Source of the DNA: an uncultured Bacilli bacterium
GTDB taxonomy: Bacteria; Bacillota_I; Bacilli_A; RFN20; CAG-449
Assembly: GCA_947626895.1 (NCBI GenBank)
Contig: CANQTY010000005.1
Location: 1-51,224 of the forward strand
DNA: 51,224 bases
Reading direction: 5' to 3'
Below the pieces are notes generated by a model. That model did not search any database. It saw only the letters and a program-made list of their open reading frames with translations, and was not told the DNA's origin. This document shows positions 13,982 through 32,355 of this stretch, in pieces. The translations under genes were made by a program, and so were the position numbers. Position 1 is the first letter of the stretch; every line of letters starts with the position of its first letter.

Positions 13982-15226
13982 TTAGAAGAAAGAAAGTTTC
14001 ATTTCACTTGCTTCATCAATACTTACAAAATCGCTTAATGAAGAATCAACATAGCAATGAATTCCATCTTCATCATCCATATAAATTGTTTTTACATTAA
14101 ATAAATTTGATAGAGTTTTACCCTCCTCGATAGAACACATCATTAAAGCTGTAGATAATGCATCACAACTAGCGCCATCTAGGTTAGAATTACTAAAAAC
14201 ACTCACTGAGCGATGATAAGATTGGTTTTGTAAATTATTTCCCACATTTACGCCCGTTGGGTATCCTGTCATGGGATTAATAATATGATGATATCGAATC
14301 CCATCACTTGTTAAATAATAGTTTTGATAATCTCCAGAAGTAGAAAAAGAAAATTTTCCTTGATAAGCAAAATGTAAAAATTCATCTTCCTTTTGTCTTA
14401 AAGGATATAAAGGATTGCAAATGGATATATTCCAAGTATCAAAATAAGAATCACCATAAGAAGTTAAAGAAGATTGTCCTAAAGAAAATAAAGAATGTTC
14501 ATCATCCATTATTTCACTTAGAATATCATTTACTCTACCTTTTGCAATTCCTCCAAAAGTGATACTGATAGTTTTATTTTCAATCTGACTAAATTTAACG
14601 CTTTTATTGATATCATCAAAAGTAAATATTTCTTTTATTTCCTCAATAGAGGGAGTATTATTTAATGCTTTATTAATTTCTTCTTCACTAGGGGTAATAT
14701 CTATTGTTCTTCCTTTATATTGACTAATATAAGAATCCCATAAAGAAGATAATTCACCAATACAAAAATTAAATTTACCTTCTGTTTTCAGCGTTAAATC
14801 ATAAGCAATTTTTAATAAATCATATGTTTCTTTTTCTAATGAGATAAATTCTTCATCCCCATAATGATTATTTAAATATGCGACATTATGCAATAAAGAA
14901 CCATCTGCTTTTTTAAAATAGGTATGTCGATCAAAACACATCGATAAATAGACGATTTCTTTTTTACATTCATTGAGTTTTGTTTCTAAGGAAGTCTTAT
15001 AACTTTCATGAAGATAGTTATAAGAAATAATTTCTGCTTGATCAAAAGCAAAATAAATGGGTAATTCCTTTTCATTACCATTTTCATCTATTTGAAAAGG
15101 AGTATATTCATTAAAAAAAACATTCATTGGTGTCATAAGGACATTTGTCCATGACATTTCTTTATCTTCAATATTGCATGAAGTTAATAAAGCTAGACAA
15201 AGAAAACCTAATAAATGCTTTTTCAT
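13982..15226 (-). CDS. apbE: ApbE-like FAD:protein FMN transferase, lipoprotein
   Basis: LLTSC lipobox; SITFGGIAKGRVND, SFSTSGDYQNYY, HHIINPMTGYPTG, DALSTALM motifs. Confidence 0.9.
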   Translation of the reverse strand: MKKHLLGFLCLALLTSCNIEDKEMSWTNVLMTPMNVFFNEYTPFQIDENGNEKELPIYFAFDQAEIISYNYLHESYKTSLETKLNECKKEIVYLSMCFDRHTYFKKADGSLLHNVAYLNNHYGDEEFISLEKETYDLLKIAYDLTLKTEGKFNFCIGELSSLWDSYISQYKGRTIDITPSEEEINKALNNTPSIEEIKEIFTFDDINKSVKFSQIENKTISITFGGIAKGRVNDILSEIMDDEHSLFSLGQSSLTSYGDSYFDTWNISICNPLYPLRQKEDEFLHFAYQGKFSFSTSGDYQNYYLTSDGIRYHHIINPMTGYPTGVNVGNNLQNQSYHRSVSVFSNSNLDGASCDALSTALMMCSIEEGKTLSNLFNVKTIYMDDEDGIHCYVDSSLSDFVSIDEASEMKLSFF

Positions 15227-27034: not shown

Positions 27035-27364
27035 TTATTCGCTGACTTTTAAAGTTTCACCATTTGGTCCAGGTGTGCTATTTAAATAAGTCACGATTGT
27101 TTGAGCTTTATCTTGTTTAATCACTTTACACATACGTACTTTCGTGACCTTTCCTTCGATAATAGCATCTACTAAACCTGCACAACCAGGATATCCACAG
27201 GCACCGCAATTGGCACCAGGCATATTTTTCATAACTTCCGCTTTACGTGGATCTTCTTGCACGGATAAAAATTTATCTGCAAGAGCAAGAACAACACCTA
27301 AAATAATGGCGATAACAACGATTACCGCGGCAGCAATTAACATTGATTGATAGTTAAATTCCAT
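27035..27364 (-). CDS. rnfB: RnfB-like subunit, short form: N-terminal TM plus one [4Fe-4S] motif only
   Basis: ALADKFLSVQEDPRK...MPGANCGACGYPGCAGLVDAIIEGKVTKVRMCK matches the RnfB N-terminal region; stops at 109 aa. Confidence 0.85.
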   Translation of the reverse strand: MEFNYQSMLIAAAVIVVIAIILGVVLALADKFLSVQEDPRKAEVMKNMPGANCGACGYPGCAGLVDAIIEGKVTKVRMCKVIKQDKAQTIVTYLNSTPGPNGETLKVSE

Positions 27365-27556
27365 TTATTTTTCCTCCTTATTATCTGCTGCATCGTCCTT
27401 ATTTTTATTAAACTTACAGAAAGTATTTTTACATTCTAGACATTCAATATCATCATCACACCCTTCAGGTTTTGCTACCTTTTTATTTAAAAGATAACCG
27501 ATGATAAAAATGGTAAGTAAAACAGCAACAATTCCAATCGCAGCAATGATTTCCAT
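27365..27556 (-). CDS. Small single-TM four-Cys protein inside the rnf cluster
   Basis: 63 aa: N-terminal TM, then C-x5-C-x2-C-x4-C and an acidic/Lys tail; lies between rnfA and rnfB. Confidence 0.75.
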   Translation of the reverse strand: MEIIAAIGIVAVLLTIFIIGYLLNKKVAKPEGCDDDIECLECKNTFCKFNKNKDDAADNKEEK

Positions 27557-27557
27557 T

Positions 27558-28181
27558 TTAGAAAATTCCTACAAGTCCATTCATAAAGATCATGGCCATA
27601 ATTGCAGTACAAAGTAAACCGACGGCAACGCCAGAAAATCCTTTAGGAATTGGTGCATTTTGTAATCGTTCTCTTAAAACAGAGAAGATGTAAAGAGCTA
27701 AGAAGAAACCTAATGCTGTACCAATAGAATAAACAAGCATGAAGATGAAATCACCAAATTCACCACCGATAGAATTAGTAAGGGATAATCCACCTAAAAG
27801 GGCATCCATATCGACGACTTGTTTACAGATATATAAGACAACACAGTTCGTGGTAATTAAAGGAAGATAGATTCCTAATGATTTATATAAAGATGGTGAG
27901 AACTTTTTAATAAACATTTCCACGAATTGCACGACACTTGCGACGACTAAAATAAAGCAAAGTGTCGACATATATTCAATATTCCATAAGACAAGGAGCT
28001 TATTTAATAAATAGCAGATAATCGAGGCTAAAACCGCGACGAAAGTAAGAGCAAATCCCATACCAACAGCGCTTTTCTTCGATTTAGAAACACCTAAATA
28101 AGAACATACCCCATAAGGAAGGGAGAATACGACGTTACTTGTTAACATCGCAATCATGAGTAACTTGAATACTTCTAACAT
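27558..28181 (-). CDS. rnfA: RnfA-like membrane subunit
   Basis: SNVVFSLPYGVCSYLGVSK; TTNCVVLYICK; gene order. Confidence 0.9.
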   Translation of the reverse strand: MLEVFKLLMIAMLTSNVVFSLPYGVCSYLGVSKSKKSAVGMGFALTFVAVLASIICYLLNKLLVLWNIEYMSTLCFILVVASVVQFVEMFIKKFSPSLYKSLGIYLPLITTNCVVLYICKQVVDMDALLGGLSLTNSIGGEFGDFIFMLVYSIGTALGFFLALYIFSVLRERLQNAPIPKGFSGVAVGLLCTAIMAMIFMNGLVGIF

Positions 28182-28183
28182 AA

Positions 28184-28894
28184 TTATTTAACCTCCTTTA
28201 CTGGAGCGCCATTTTCGGCTTCTTTTTTTAAAGCAGCTTCTTTTTTAGCTTTTTCTTTTTTATGTTCATCCATCATCATACGGATACAATAGAAAACACC
28301 TAAGATTAAGCCAAACATCATAAAGGCACCAGAACTTTGGACAAAGATTGGCATCTTATATTCTGCAAATGGTAAGAAAGAGAATAATAATTCATTGTTG
28401 AATGGATTACGGATAGTAAATCCACCTGTTCCTAATAATTCTCTAAAGAAAGCTAAGATTAAACAAGAGATTAAAAATCCGATTCCTGTTCCAAGTCCAT
28501 CAAGCATTGAATCTACAACACCATTTTTACTAGCAAAAGCTTCCGCTCTTCCTAAAATGATGCAGTTAACTGTAATCATAGGAATAAATAATCCTAAACT
28601 ACTTGCTAAATCTGGAGTAAATGCCTTCATCAAGTATTCAACCATCGTAACAAAGCTAGCGATGATGACGATAAAGACGGGAATACGAACTTCATTTGGT
28701 ACCCATTTACGAATTAAAGAGATAAAGGTATTCGTAAAGAATAAAACCATAATGACAGCGACACCCATACCTAAAGCGTTATTTAATGAGGTGGTAATTC
28801 CTAAGACTGGACACATACCAAGGAGATTTACTAAAATGGCATTTTCACGAATCAAAGGATTTACAAACGTAGCTAGTTTTCCATCTTTTTTCAT
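28184..28894 (-). CDS. rnfE: RnfE-like membrane subunit
   Basis: NPLIRENAILVNLLGMCPVLGITTSLNNALGMG; MITVNCIILGRAEAFASKN. Confidence 0.95.
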   Translation of the reverse strand: MKKDGKLATFVNPLIRENAILVNLLGMCPVLGITTSLNNALGMGVAVIMVLFFTNTFISLIRKWVPNEVRIPVFIVIIASFVTMVEYLMKAFTPDLASSLGLFIPMITVNCIILGRAEAFASKNGVVDSMLDGLGTGIGFLISCLILAFFRELLGTGGFTIRNPFNNELLFSFLPFAEYKMPIFVQSSGAFMMFGLILGVFYCIRMMMDEHKKEKAKKEAALKKEAENGAPVKEVK

Positions 28895-29436
28895 TAGGCA
28901 TTACCTCCTAAAGTTTTGTAATGAGCTAAAGCTTGATCAACAGCTTTTTTCATTGCATTCTTTGTTTTAGTCGCTCCTGCATAAGCTGGGAATTCATTTT
29001 GTCCTGTATAAGTTTTTAATTCACTTAAAGTTGTTTCATTGTTTTCATATTTACTAGCATAACCAGAATTGTTATTGGTAATCATTGAATATGAATCAAT
29101 TTTTCCACTTGTCTTATCAATTCCAAGCATAAAGGAGACTGTTCCCGATTGGGGATTATCTGTAGTTAAAGAATAGACATAAGAAGAAGCACTTCCATGA
29201 GGAACTTCCACTAGACCAGTGATATTTGTATAACCATTGCTAGCAAAGTCATAAGTGACTTCTTTAATGCCATCTACTTGAACACCATCATAAAGAACTT
29301 GATATGCTTCATTTCTTTTGACCATTTCATTATGTTCAATGACGGGTTGACAAACGTTATAGACCGCGGCAAGCGCTGTTCCAAAAAAGAGACATACACC
29401 ACCTAAAAATAAAGGAAGTTTTATAAATTTATTCAT
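28894..29436 (-). CDS. rnfG: RnfG-like subunit (FMN-binding)
   Basis: N-terminal TM; FPAYAGATKTKNAMKKAVDQAL FMN-attachment-like motif; gene order. Confidence 0.85.
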   Translation of the reverse strand: MNKFIKLPLFLGGVCLFFGTALAAVYNVCQPVIEHNEMVKRNEAYQVLYDGVQVDGIKEVTYDFASNGYTNITGLVEVPHGSASSYVYSLTTDNPQSGTVSFMLGIDKTSGKIDSYSMITNNNSGYASKYENNETTLSELKTYTGQNEFPAYAGATKTKNAMKKAVDQALAHYKTLGGNA

Positions 29437-29437
29437 T

Positions 29438-31027
29438 TTATTTACCCTCCACATAATCTAGAACACGATTGATACCATACATATAGCCTGAAACCGTGTA
29501 GGTTGCTCCACATTTTATAGTATCTGGTACTTTACTAAATTCGGTATAATTTGTAGAACTATAATATTGTAAATCTAATGCACGGAATGTAGCAAATGGG
29601 ATAGGATCTTCAAATTTAACATATGTTTCACTTAATTCTTTTAAATGACTACCTTTATCTTGTCGATAACCTAAGTATTCACTCATTTCTTCAACAACAC
29701 CTAAGAAGTAATCACCATATCCTCCACCTGCACCTGTATCATTGACTGTTACACTAACCACTGTTTTAGCTGAGGCATTTACTTCTACATCCATATCAAT
29801 TTGAACATAGGGAGCATCTTTTTCGGTTTGATTAGCAAAAGGAGTAACTTTTACATTGTAAACAGATGCACTCTTTTCTGTTACCACTGAATTATAAGTA
29901 GGTGTAGCGCTTGATACTTTTCCCATATAAGCACAGCTTACTAAGATTAATAAAGTACAAATTCCTCCCGTGATAGAGGCTTTAAGAGCTAATTTATCCG
30001 TAGTTCTTCCTTTAAAGCACATATCGATTAAAGGAGTAATCATATTTGCAAATAAGATAGAATAGGCAACACCTTCTGCGCCAGATCCCATGAAACGAAT
30101 GAGCATCGTGATAAATCCTGCAAAAACACCATAGATAATTTTACCTAATGGAGATGTAGGACTTGTCACAGGATCAGTTAAGCAGAAGACCGCACCAAAT
30201 AGGATACCTCCTGTTAACATTTGGGCTAAGATAAATGTTCCAAAATCACTTACACCATTTACTGCGCCAACTAACATGGCACTTAATAAACAAGTAAGTA
30301 AATAAGAACAAGAAATTCTCCAGTCGATGACGTGTAATACGACAAAAGCAATTCCAATGACGATAATTAATAAGGAGAATGTTTCACCTAAAGTTCCTCG
30401 ATAATTTCCGATAAATAAATCAAAAAGTGAAACATTACTAAAGGATGTTAAAGTATTCCATCCTTCGCCTGCCCAATTGCTTAAAACGGTAGGACCTGTA
30501 AAAACCTCAAATTCTTGTATACCTTCGATATGGCCATAATTAAATGAACTACCAAAGCAGATTTGAGCAAAGATTCTTCCAAAAATCGCGGGATTGAAGA
30601 TATTATATCCAAATCCTCCAAAGAGCATTTTACAAATGGCTACCGCAGCAATCGTGGTAAACACAAGTTGCCACCAAGCCATTCCAACAGGAAGAAGTAA
30701 AGCAAGAATAATACCTGTGATATAACCAAAAGAATTGATTTCTTTCTTTAAAAGATATAAGCAGATATTTCCTACTTTTTCCTTATTTTCTTTATATTCT
30801 TTTAAGGTTTTTGGTAAGAAAAATAAGATTTCTGTAACCATCGCAGTTAAAACACAAATGACAACGTTCAAGATTGCAAATAAGCCATCTTCAACATTTC
30901 CTGCGATAAAGTAATAAATAATAGCCGCTAACCAAACAAGAGCTAAACCACCTAAAAGCATTAACATGATTTTAAGTGTGCTATTTTTTGATCTTACGTA
31001 AGGAGCGGGATTTACTGCTAAATTCAT
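29438..31027 (-). CDS. rnfD: RnfD-like membrane subunit with extra C-terminal domain
   Basis: FGGFGYNIFNPAIFGR; FCLTDPVTSPTSPLGKIIYGVFAG; 529 aa, about 150 aa longer than typical. Confidence 0.92.
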   Translation of the reverse strand: MNLAVNPAPYVRSKNSTLKIMLMLLGGLALVWLAAIIYYFIAGNVEDGLFAILNVVICVLTAMVTEILFFLPKTLKEYKENKEKVGNICLYLLKKEINSFGYITGIILALLLPVGMAWWQLVFTTIAAVAICKMLFGGFGYNIFNPAIFGRIFAQICFGSSFNYGHIEGIQEFEVFTGPTVLSNWAGEGWNTLTSFSNVSLFDLFIGNYRGTLGETFSLLIIVIGIAFVVLHVIDWRISCSYLLTCLLSAMLVGAVNGVSDFGTFILAQMLTGGILFGAVFCLTDPVTSPTSPLGKIIYGVFAGFITMLIRFMGSGAEGVAYSILFANMITPLIDMCFKGRTTDKLALKASITGGICTLLILVSCAYMGKVSSATPTYNSVVTEKSASVYNVKVTPFANQTEKDAPYVQIDMDVEVNASAKTVVSVTVNDTGAGGGYGDYFLGVVEEMSEYLGYRQDKGSHLKELSETYVKFEDPIPFATFRALDLQYYSSTNYTEFSKVPDTIKCGATYTVSGYMYGINRVLDYVEGK

Positions 31028-32355
31028 TTTTTACCCTCCTTTTTTTGTGCCTCTAATTGTTTTAATTTGATGGATGTCATTAATTTGGCTTTTTTGACAA
31101 AGTCATTAACATCAATCTTACTTGGGCAGATATAAGAACATAAACCACATCCTATACAATGCCATGGAGTAAGTGCCATCATTCGATCACTATCTTTTGC
31201 TTGATAAGCATCTTTAATTTCCACTGGTTGTAAACCTACTGGGCAATGATCCGTACAGGCTCCACATCGTAAGCAAGGAAGTGTATTTAAAGTCATTCTA
31301 GGTAAAATCGTAAGTCCATTATAATAAGGTAATATAACGGCTTTATCATCCATAACTCCTCTTGAACACATTGGTCCACCAAAAGATACAGATACACTTT
31401 CACCAACATAACCACCTAAAAATTCAACAATATCAACTGCTCTTGTATAAATAGGAACATCGACATTTGATGGATTAGAAACTCCACTACCAGAAACGGT
31501 AATCACTTTATGAGTTTCCACTTCTCCATTCATTGCTCTAGCTAGCAAAATCGCGGTAGTCACATTATTGACAATGGTATGAGCTTCCGCAGGTAATTTA
31601 TCATACGTTCTTTTTAATACTGCTTTTACGATGAAACGTTCCCATCCCGCAGGATAGACGTTTTTCACATGAGCTACATGGATAGAGGGATTAATCGATT
31701 CAATATCCTTATAGCATTCATCTAAATCGGGATATCCTTTTTTATAGACGATATAAGCATCTTTTGCTCCCGCGGCTTTCATCATAAATTCAATACCATG
31801 AATTAATTCATCTTTATGAAGTAGCATCGCTTCATGGTCGGTAGTTAAGAATGGTTCACATTCAACACCATTAATTAAAATGGTATCGATATTCTTTTCT
31901 AAAGCACCTAAATATTTAATATAGGTTGGGAATCCTGCACCACCTTGACCACTTAAGCCAGATTCCTTCATGCGTTCAACAATTTGTTCTGCTGAAGCTT
32001 TCAAGTCAAGAACCTCTAAAGGTTCTACTTTTTGATGTTTCTTATCATTTTCAATCGCAAAGTGTCTTACATTACGACCTAGACCTGCATGAAACATCGT
32101 TTCTTCTCTAACGATTTTTCCAGAGACTGGGGCAAAAACAGGTGTTCCTTTTTCACACGTTCCAATCACTTGACCTTCTTTTACTAGATCACCGATTGAA
32201 ACATTGAGCTGAATCGGTTTAGAAGATCCTGGATCTACCACTGGAACAAAGACTTCATTGGGTTCAAATTTTAAAACTTCTTTACCCATGGAAAGTTTCT
32301 TTGTGTCTTGGATACGATAGAGATGTTTGTGTCCTAACGTAGTAAAAATAGACAT
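31024..32355 (-). CDS. rnfC: RnfC-like subunit
   Basis: GLSGQGGAGFPTYIKY; CLRCGACTDHCPVGLQP and CIGCGLCSYICPSKID, two [4Fe-4S] motifs. Confidence 0.95.
   Translation of the reverse strand: MSIFTTLGHKHLYRIQDTKKLSMGKEVLKFEPNEVFVPVVDPGSSKPIQLNVSIGDLVKEGQVIGTCEKGTPVFAPVSGKIVREETMFHAGLGRNVRHFAIENDKKHQKVEPLEVLDLKASAEQIVERMKESGLSGQGGAGFPTYIKYLGALEKNIDTILINGVECEPFLTTDHEAMLLHKDELIHGIEFMMKAAGAKDAYIVYKKGYPDLDECYKDIESINPSIHVAHVKNVYPAGWERFIVKAVLKRTYDKLPAEAHTIVNNVTTAILLARAMNGEVETHKVITVSGSGVSNPSNVDVPIYTRAVDIVEFLGGYVGESVSVSFGGPMCSRGVMDDKAVILPYYNGLTILPRMTLNTLPCLRCGACTDHCPVGLQPVEIKDAYQAKDSDRMMALTPWHCIGCGLCSYICPSKIDVNDFVKKAKLMTSIKLKQLEAQKKEGKK

Follow-up and report, generated by a model that had tools for sequence, protein, structure and literature searches.

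A small cysteine-bearing membrane protein, designated X here, is encoded between rnfA and a short rnfB in an uncultured Bacilli bacterium; it accompanies Rnf complexes of the short-RnfB branch, which it probably serves as a dedicated helper or as a new component. The gene lies in the window, i.e., the whole analyzed stretch of 51,224 nucleotides, where rnfC-rnfD-rnfG-rnfE-rnfA-X-rnfB form a complete operon on the minus strand, from position 32355 down to 27035. The features considered were as follows:

27365..27556, minus strand: X, 63 aa, single transmembrane (TM) segment, C33-x5-C39-x2-C42-x4-C47, between rnfA and rnfB
27035..27364, minus strand: short rnfB (109 aa), TM segment and one PF04060 FeS domain (E 1e-10)
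27558..28181, minus strand: rnfA (207 aa), PF02508 (1.4e-42), TIGR01943 best, under cut-off
28184..28894, minus strand: rnfE (236 aa), PF02508 (4.4e-62), PRK12405 and TIGR01948 over cut-off
28894..29454, minus strand: rnfG (186 aa, FMN_bind), PF04205 (6.2e-7), TIGR01947 best, under cut-off
29438..31027, minus strand: rnfD (529 aa), PF03116 (7.4e-70)
31024..32355, minus strand: rnfC (443 aa, two C-terminal Fer4), TIGR01945 over cut-off, Pfam Fer4 matches
13982..15226, minus strand: apbE-type FMN transferase (414 aa), PF02424 (2.4e-36)

The six rnf genes of the operon were identified using Pfam and NCBIfam. The window RnfB scored 50.3 bits with the NCBIfam model TIGR01944 (rnfB; cut-off of 68.7), and PF04060 was the sole Pfam family listed for it, with no Fer4 domain. 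The apbE-type gene is located about 12 kb from the operon, and ApbE-type FMN transferases are the type of enzyme that flavinylates Rnf. The X ORF begins with ATG, one base from the rnfA stop (27558) and zero bases from the rnfB start (27364), which bears out the placement of a 63-aa ORF given in the initial annotation, the strand being minus. As a side observation, the Pfam domain of the window RnfD (29438-31027) covers residues 5–341 and leaves a C-terminal extension of about 190 aa without an assigned domain.

The AlphaFold model of X alone consisted of a helix at residues 2–26 (pLDDT of about 97) and a tail of low confidence (pLDDT mostly 44–69 by blocks of ten residues), with no cluster geometry. 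The single N-terminal TM segment and the four-cysteine motif proposed earlier are both present in the window protein. Since lysines directly follow the helix, the positive-inside rule suggests a cytoplasmic location of the Cys tail. No Pfam or NCBIfam family was found over the cut-off for the window X, and neither Fer4 nor PF04060 was among the families listed for this protein and for the 58 X proteins of set A2, while a PDB sequence search with the X profile returned matches of the TM segment only (E of 0.13 or worse). In the family to which the window genome belongs, RnfA was found in 16 of 18 genomes and X in the same 16; these X proteins shared the pattern YxLNxKTxKPEGC...CxxC....C with all four cysteines invariant (16/16), including a conserved juxtamembrane motif, YxLNKKTxKPxGC. 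The dN/dS values for the window and its closest relative were 0.136 (X), 0.071 (RnfB), and 0.061 (RnfA); of the six pairs computed for X, five gave 0.027–0.136, and the remaining one (window and G009), which is more divergent, gave 0.435. Consequently, the X ORF is a real conserved gene, beyond chance.

Searches of 279 genomes of the order were made with the X profile and with the window RnfA (RnfA threshold of E 1e-15 or better). An RnfA match was found in 143 genomes, and X was located directly downstream on the same strand in 129 of them; absence next to other short rnfB genes, named in the initial annotation as the finding that would speak against a new subunit, is therefore not what the order displays. 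Among the other 14 genomes, nine (G049, G051, G052, G053, G054, G068, G072, G256, and G258) had an X of 57–62 aa between rnfA and rnfB that had lost the first cysteine (three-Cys X); in G005, the contig was broken and X was at the start of another contig; and in G272, X was not at rnfA but directly after apbE, with an 8-base overlap with the end of the ApbE gene (ApbE confirmed by Pfam). The remaining three, G265, G266, and G267, had NQR-type operons in which the rnfA homologue is followed by an NqrF-like protein (NqrF domains confirmed in one of them), and X was not found in these operons. Every X match in the order at E 1e-5 or better fell in a genome with RnfA. RnfB was 97–164 aa as called in the 50 loci of the order where it was found, the longer values looking like early alternative starts. 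A joined RnfA–X ORF in G084 spans a run of N and was rejected as an assembly artefact; none of the loci read contained a true fusion.

Similar co-occurrence was found in a class-wide sample of 395 genomes (thresholds of E 1e-5 or better for X and E 1e-22 or better for RnfA), where X was detected in 186 and RnfA in 212 genomes: 182 had both, 4 had only X, 30 had only RnfA, and 179 had neither (Fisher p tiny, in a test that ignores relatedness). The full order rnfE-rnfA-X-short rnfB was present at seven of the first nine X loci read outside the order; at L186 and L187, overlapping frames concealed part of the ORF picture. The genomes reached by searches of the phylum all belonged to the same class or to a lower rank within it, adding no wider taxa.

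The genomes with only RnfA were of several kinds. In family f17, all five genomes read (G287, G309, G336, G377, and G576) had a shrunken X of 35–56 aa, comprising a TM helix and CxxCx2-3C, between rnfA and an rnfB of 89–94 aa; a three-Cys X was found in G484, where it was cut by the contig end, and in G531. A long RnfB was present in G349, G393, G405, G446, G482 (split over two contigs), G568, and G573, and Fer4 domains were confirmed by Pfam in both of the long RnfB proteins tested. Family f16 contributed eight NQR-level matches, with NqrF-type genes in all five genomes read (G459, G541, and G575 were outside the reading), and G432, G567, and G607 had NQR-level scores only, at loci outside the reading. 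Finally, a short RnfB without a findable X occurred in G313, G476, G499, G511, and G577, and these five genomes stand for now against a strict coupling of X and short RnfB; completeness is 55–84% in four of them and 98% in G511, whose contamination is 6%. As for the genomes with only X, the match in G243 was a FeoB-associated gene, X in G464 and G508 (85–86% complete) was at a conserved spot unlinked to rnf, and G235 (96% complete) contained an orphan X-like four-Cys gene (L253:1480-1716) and no RnfA match. It should be noted that f17 consists of small genomes, and their X and RnfB (loci L248, L249, L196, L298, and L299) are among the smallest Rnf parts seen here.

Linkage to the operon was conserved but had exceptions, so the description of X as a gene between rnfA and rnfB holds with a restriction: in nine genomes in which both places were read (G282, G292, G363, G369, G411, G514, G520, G582, and G597), rnfA directly touched rnfB and X was elsewhere. 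In some families, the neighbours of the unlinked X were phosphoglucomutase/phosphomannomutase-like and uracil-glycosylase-like genes, and in other families deaminase-like and PDZ-protease-like genes, all named by sequence reading, with no family search. The unlinked proteins retained LNxxTxxP...CxxC(x3-4)C and matched the X profile at 99.3%. Like a subunit of Rnf, X is thus encoded in the rnf operon and co-inherited with it, with these unlinked exceptions.

The conservation of the cysteines was assessed in 89 X proteins, comprising 58 from set A2, 14 unlinked, and 17 further ones. All 89 contained the CxxC(x3-5)C core, which is in part a consequence of how the set was built: most A2 proteins from outside the family were picked by the filter C..C.{2,6}C, whereas the 16 family members and the profile hits were not picked in this way. 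A2 leaves out L014, L016, and L117 (near or full duplicates), as well as L108, L115, L122, L123, and L124, which were missed by the filter (X of L108 was later read by eye). The first cysteine was present in 66 of the 89 proteins and absent in 23, with losses in several separate families. The expectation of four conserved cysteines was therefore correct for the family of the window genome, but more widely it applies to the core and not to the first residue.

The presence of X followed the form of RnfB. When 80 genomes were searched with a long RnfB, a match across most of its length was obtained in only seven genomes, and X was absent from all seven; nor was X found beside the seven NqrF-type loci read elsewhere. 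X therefore accompanies short RnfB, as the check proposed in the initial annotation required, and neither RnfB with ferredoxin domains nor NqrF. In four Clostridia loci and one Fusobacterium locus, a long RnfB (263–429 aa) directly followed rnfA. The RnfA+RnfE tree included 64 loci, among them four long-RnfB Bacilli, which fell among Clostridia, while the short-RnfB loci all formed one clade with modest support (62.1/87). A swap of Fer4 domains for X in a single lineage was not shown by the tree, where the long-RnfB Bacilli group with Clostridia and there are two groups only. X and the short RnfB may share an origin, and their coupling fits both functional replacement and a branch-specific assembly factor. 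The four loci concerned (L246, L306, L300, and L301; f12:g112 and f20) have a Clostridia-type Rnf with long RnfB, unlike their short-RnfB relatives in the same tree. An RnfB of G326 (L203:1715-2269, 184 aa) has two tandem PF04060 FeS domains, no Fer4, and an adjoining X.

The family matched by most X proteins was PF12669 (FeoB_associated), which was found for 22 of the 58 A2 proteins at E 0.1 or better (best E of 2.1e-4) and for 5 of the 14 unlinked ones, with no match for the window X; the scores were below the curated cut-off of 27 bits where shown (20.6 for X of L209), the A2 matches being listed by E-value only. Weak X-profile hits away from rnf were located directly behind FeoB-like genes (FeoB_C confirmed by Pfam for L142 and L247, two of six). 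The six FeoB-neighbour proteins were aligned, and all of them matched PF12669, the score of the L142 protein being itself low (22.7 bits). Comparison of the X profile with these six by hhalign gave 97.5%, a score reached by 0 of 150 and 0 of 150 shuffles, which makes X a distant relative of the Cys-rich proteins associated with FeoB. The two types are alike in size, the single N-terminal TM segment, the basic stretch, and the Cys tail containing CxxC; they differ in that X is found with rnf or at other loci and its relatives with feoB, in the X-specific juxtamembrane motif YxLNxxTxxP, and in Cys spacing, which in X is unlike the Cx3-5Cx2-3Cx6-8C printed for the FeoB-associated type in the available part of PMC8749426. 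The same part of that source describes the motifs of PF12669 as often linked to iron binding and treats as unanswered whether this protein type is even translated. Since the FeoB-associated proteins are the sole detectable relatives of X, this kinship suggests iron or Fe–S handling as much as electron transfer.

Meanwhile, homology of X to NqrM was tried and rejected: hhalign against NqrM sequences from five Proteobacteria gave 67.8%, but only 8.2% when gap columns were removed, and 25 of 150 and 34 of 150 shuffles scored as high. Four cysteines define NqrM, and this pattern was seen in the NqrM sequences compared, with one of the five deviating. The best X/NqrM alignment pairs cysteines, and the layout of both proteins is alike, with one TM segment (predicted for X), a basic stretch, GC or GSC with the first cysteine (which 23 of the 89 X proteins lack), and then three clustered cysteines; both are encoded with a homologous complex, and X of G272 directly follows apbE, as nqrM does in Providencia. 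However, the spacing is C-x11-C-x-C-x3-C in NqrM and C-x5-C-x2-C-x4-C in the window X, X was not found with NQR here, and a PF04400 search of the 18 genomes of the family and of 13 chosen NQR/Rnf genomes gave nothing over the cut-off. Only a likeness of design is claimed from these sequences. With RnfB of Clostridia and Proteobacteria, X shares a single N-terminal TM segment, a Cys region on the cytoplasmic side (predicted for X), and the neighbouring gene position, yet PF04060 and Fer4 are lacking among its listed matches. RnfH of the Azotobacter RNF is likewise an extra lineage-specific Rnf component, but it is described as having no cofactor in the available text of PMC12174285, unlike the Cys-bearing X.

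The preferred interpretation, with a probability of roughly 0.45, is that X is an Rnf-dedicated, membrane-anchored iron or Fe–S handling protein of short-RnfB Rnf. The TM helix would hold the Cys tail at the cytoplasmic face beside RnfA, RnfE, and RnfB; the CxxC(x3-5)C core, preceded in most cases by a fourth cysteine, would transiently bind iron or a small cluster and could pass it to the RnfA–RnfE intramembrane [2Fe-2S] cluster or to the single cluster of the short RnfB, so that X would work for Rnf as NqrM does for NQR. According to the available part of PMC12174285, NqrD/E and RnfA/E have corresponding intramembrane [2Fe-2S] clusters, and NqrM seems to be required for inserting the one in NqrD/E. 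Iron or Fe–S handling is favoured because of the NqrM-like build, the place beside rnfA, the adjacency to apbE in one genome, and the kin linked to ferrous iron import. Coupling to Rnf in the order and in the class sample, also where X is unlinked, counts for it, as does the retention of the remnant in the small f17 genomes; variable Cys spacing and loss of the first cysteine would fit a carrier more readily than a fixed redox site. The chief objection comes from long-RnfB Rnf of Bacilli (7/7) and NQR, which lack X although the intramembrane cluster is present; since they manage without it, X cannot be generally needed for that cluster. The unsupported NqrM homology, the PF12669 scores under the cut-off where shown, and the five X-less short-RnfB genomes also count against iron handling.

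This pattern of absence is better explained by an electron relay, in which a cluster on X would take electrons from ferredoxin and deliver them to the short RnfB or to RnfA/E, replacing the lost ferredoxin domains of RnfB. Such a role is considered somewhat unlikely, although the coupling of X to the RnfB form without Fer4 is its strongest point; the gene position, the CxxCxxC of some minimal X forms, and the tendency of multi-Rnf genomes toward several X (G322 has three Rnf-type RnfA and three X, though each of G280 and G311 combines two Rnf-type RnfA with a single X) are consistent with it. On the other hand, the inconstant first cysteine and spacing, the 35-aa forms, which are very small for a ferredoxin-docking relay, the location outside the operon in some families, and the FeoB-associated relatives argue against electron input, and the short- and long-RnfB groups differ by whole-operon ancestry, so that Fer4 loss and X gain were not seen as one step. 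A broader version, considered rather unlikely, is that class Bacilli contains a distinct kind of Rnf with a split electron input, with the multi-cluster ferredoxin-binding half of RnfB gone and its job done by, or dependent on, X recruited from the FeoB-associated family; the second single-TM protein of such a split input would have three or four cysteines and be as short as 35 residues. The conserved YxLNKKTxKPxGC motif looks like a docking surface, and an additional subunit limited to one lineage has a precedent in RnfH (PMC12174285, available part), both of which suit a small structural or stabilizing subunit akin to RnfH or to single-TM subunits of respiratory complexes, with the cysteines binding Zn or Fe for local folding only; this role is improbable, because core cysteines kept even in the 35-aa remnants imply that the cysteines, and not the helix alone, are under selection, and unlinked X genes in several families also count against it. 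A general iron or membrane role with an indirect link to Rnf would agree with the relatives beside feoB, the X-like gene of G235, and the unlinked X among housekeeping-type genes, but it is very improbable given RnfA in 182 of 186 X genomes of the class sample (uncorrected for relatedness) and in all genomes of the order with X matches.

No description of a small Cys-bearing protein encoded in the rnfA–rnfB interval was found in the available parts of five open-access sources (PMC12174285, PMC8238504, PMC8749426, PMC4014512, and PMC6209661). In the Rnf structures tabulated in the accessible portion of a review, two to seven additional [4Fe-4S] clusters of RnfB form the ferredoxin entry (PMC12174285), while many Bacilli run Rnf without these extra clusters and together with X. 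Knowing what X does would either clarify the route of electrons into such a reduced Rnf or bring to light a factor that matures an Fe–S core of Rnf, and it would offer the FeoB-associated proteins their first possible function.

Two further observations concern other loci. NQR operons with a compact NqrF of 358–362 aa were found in G265–G267 (L112–L114) and in G319, G343, G358, G364, and G453 (L243–L245, L255, and L256), and PF04400 (NqrM) was not found over the cut-off in those Bacilli genomes with compact-NqrF operons. The order rnfA-X-short rnfB was also present in L089 and L097, records titled Leptotrichiaceae, which are either mislabelled MAGs or a case of X outside Bacilli.
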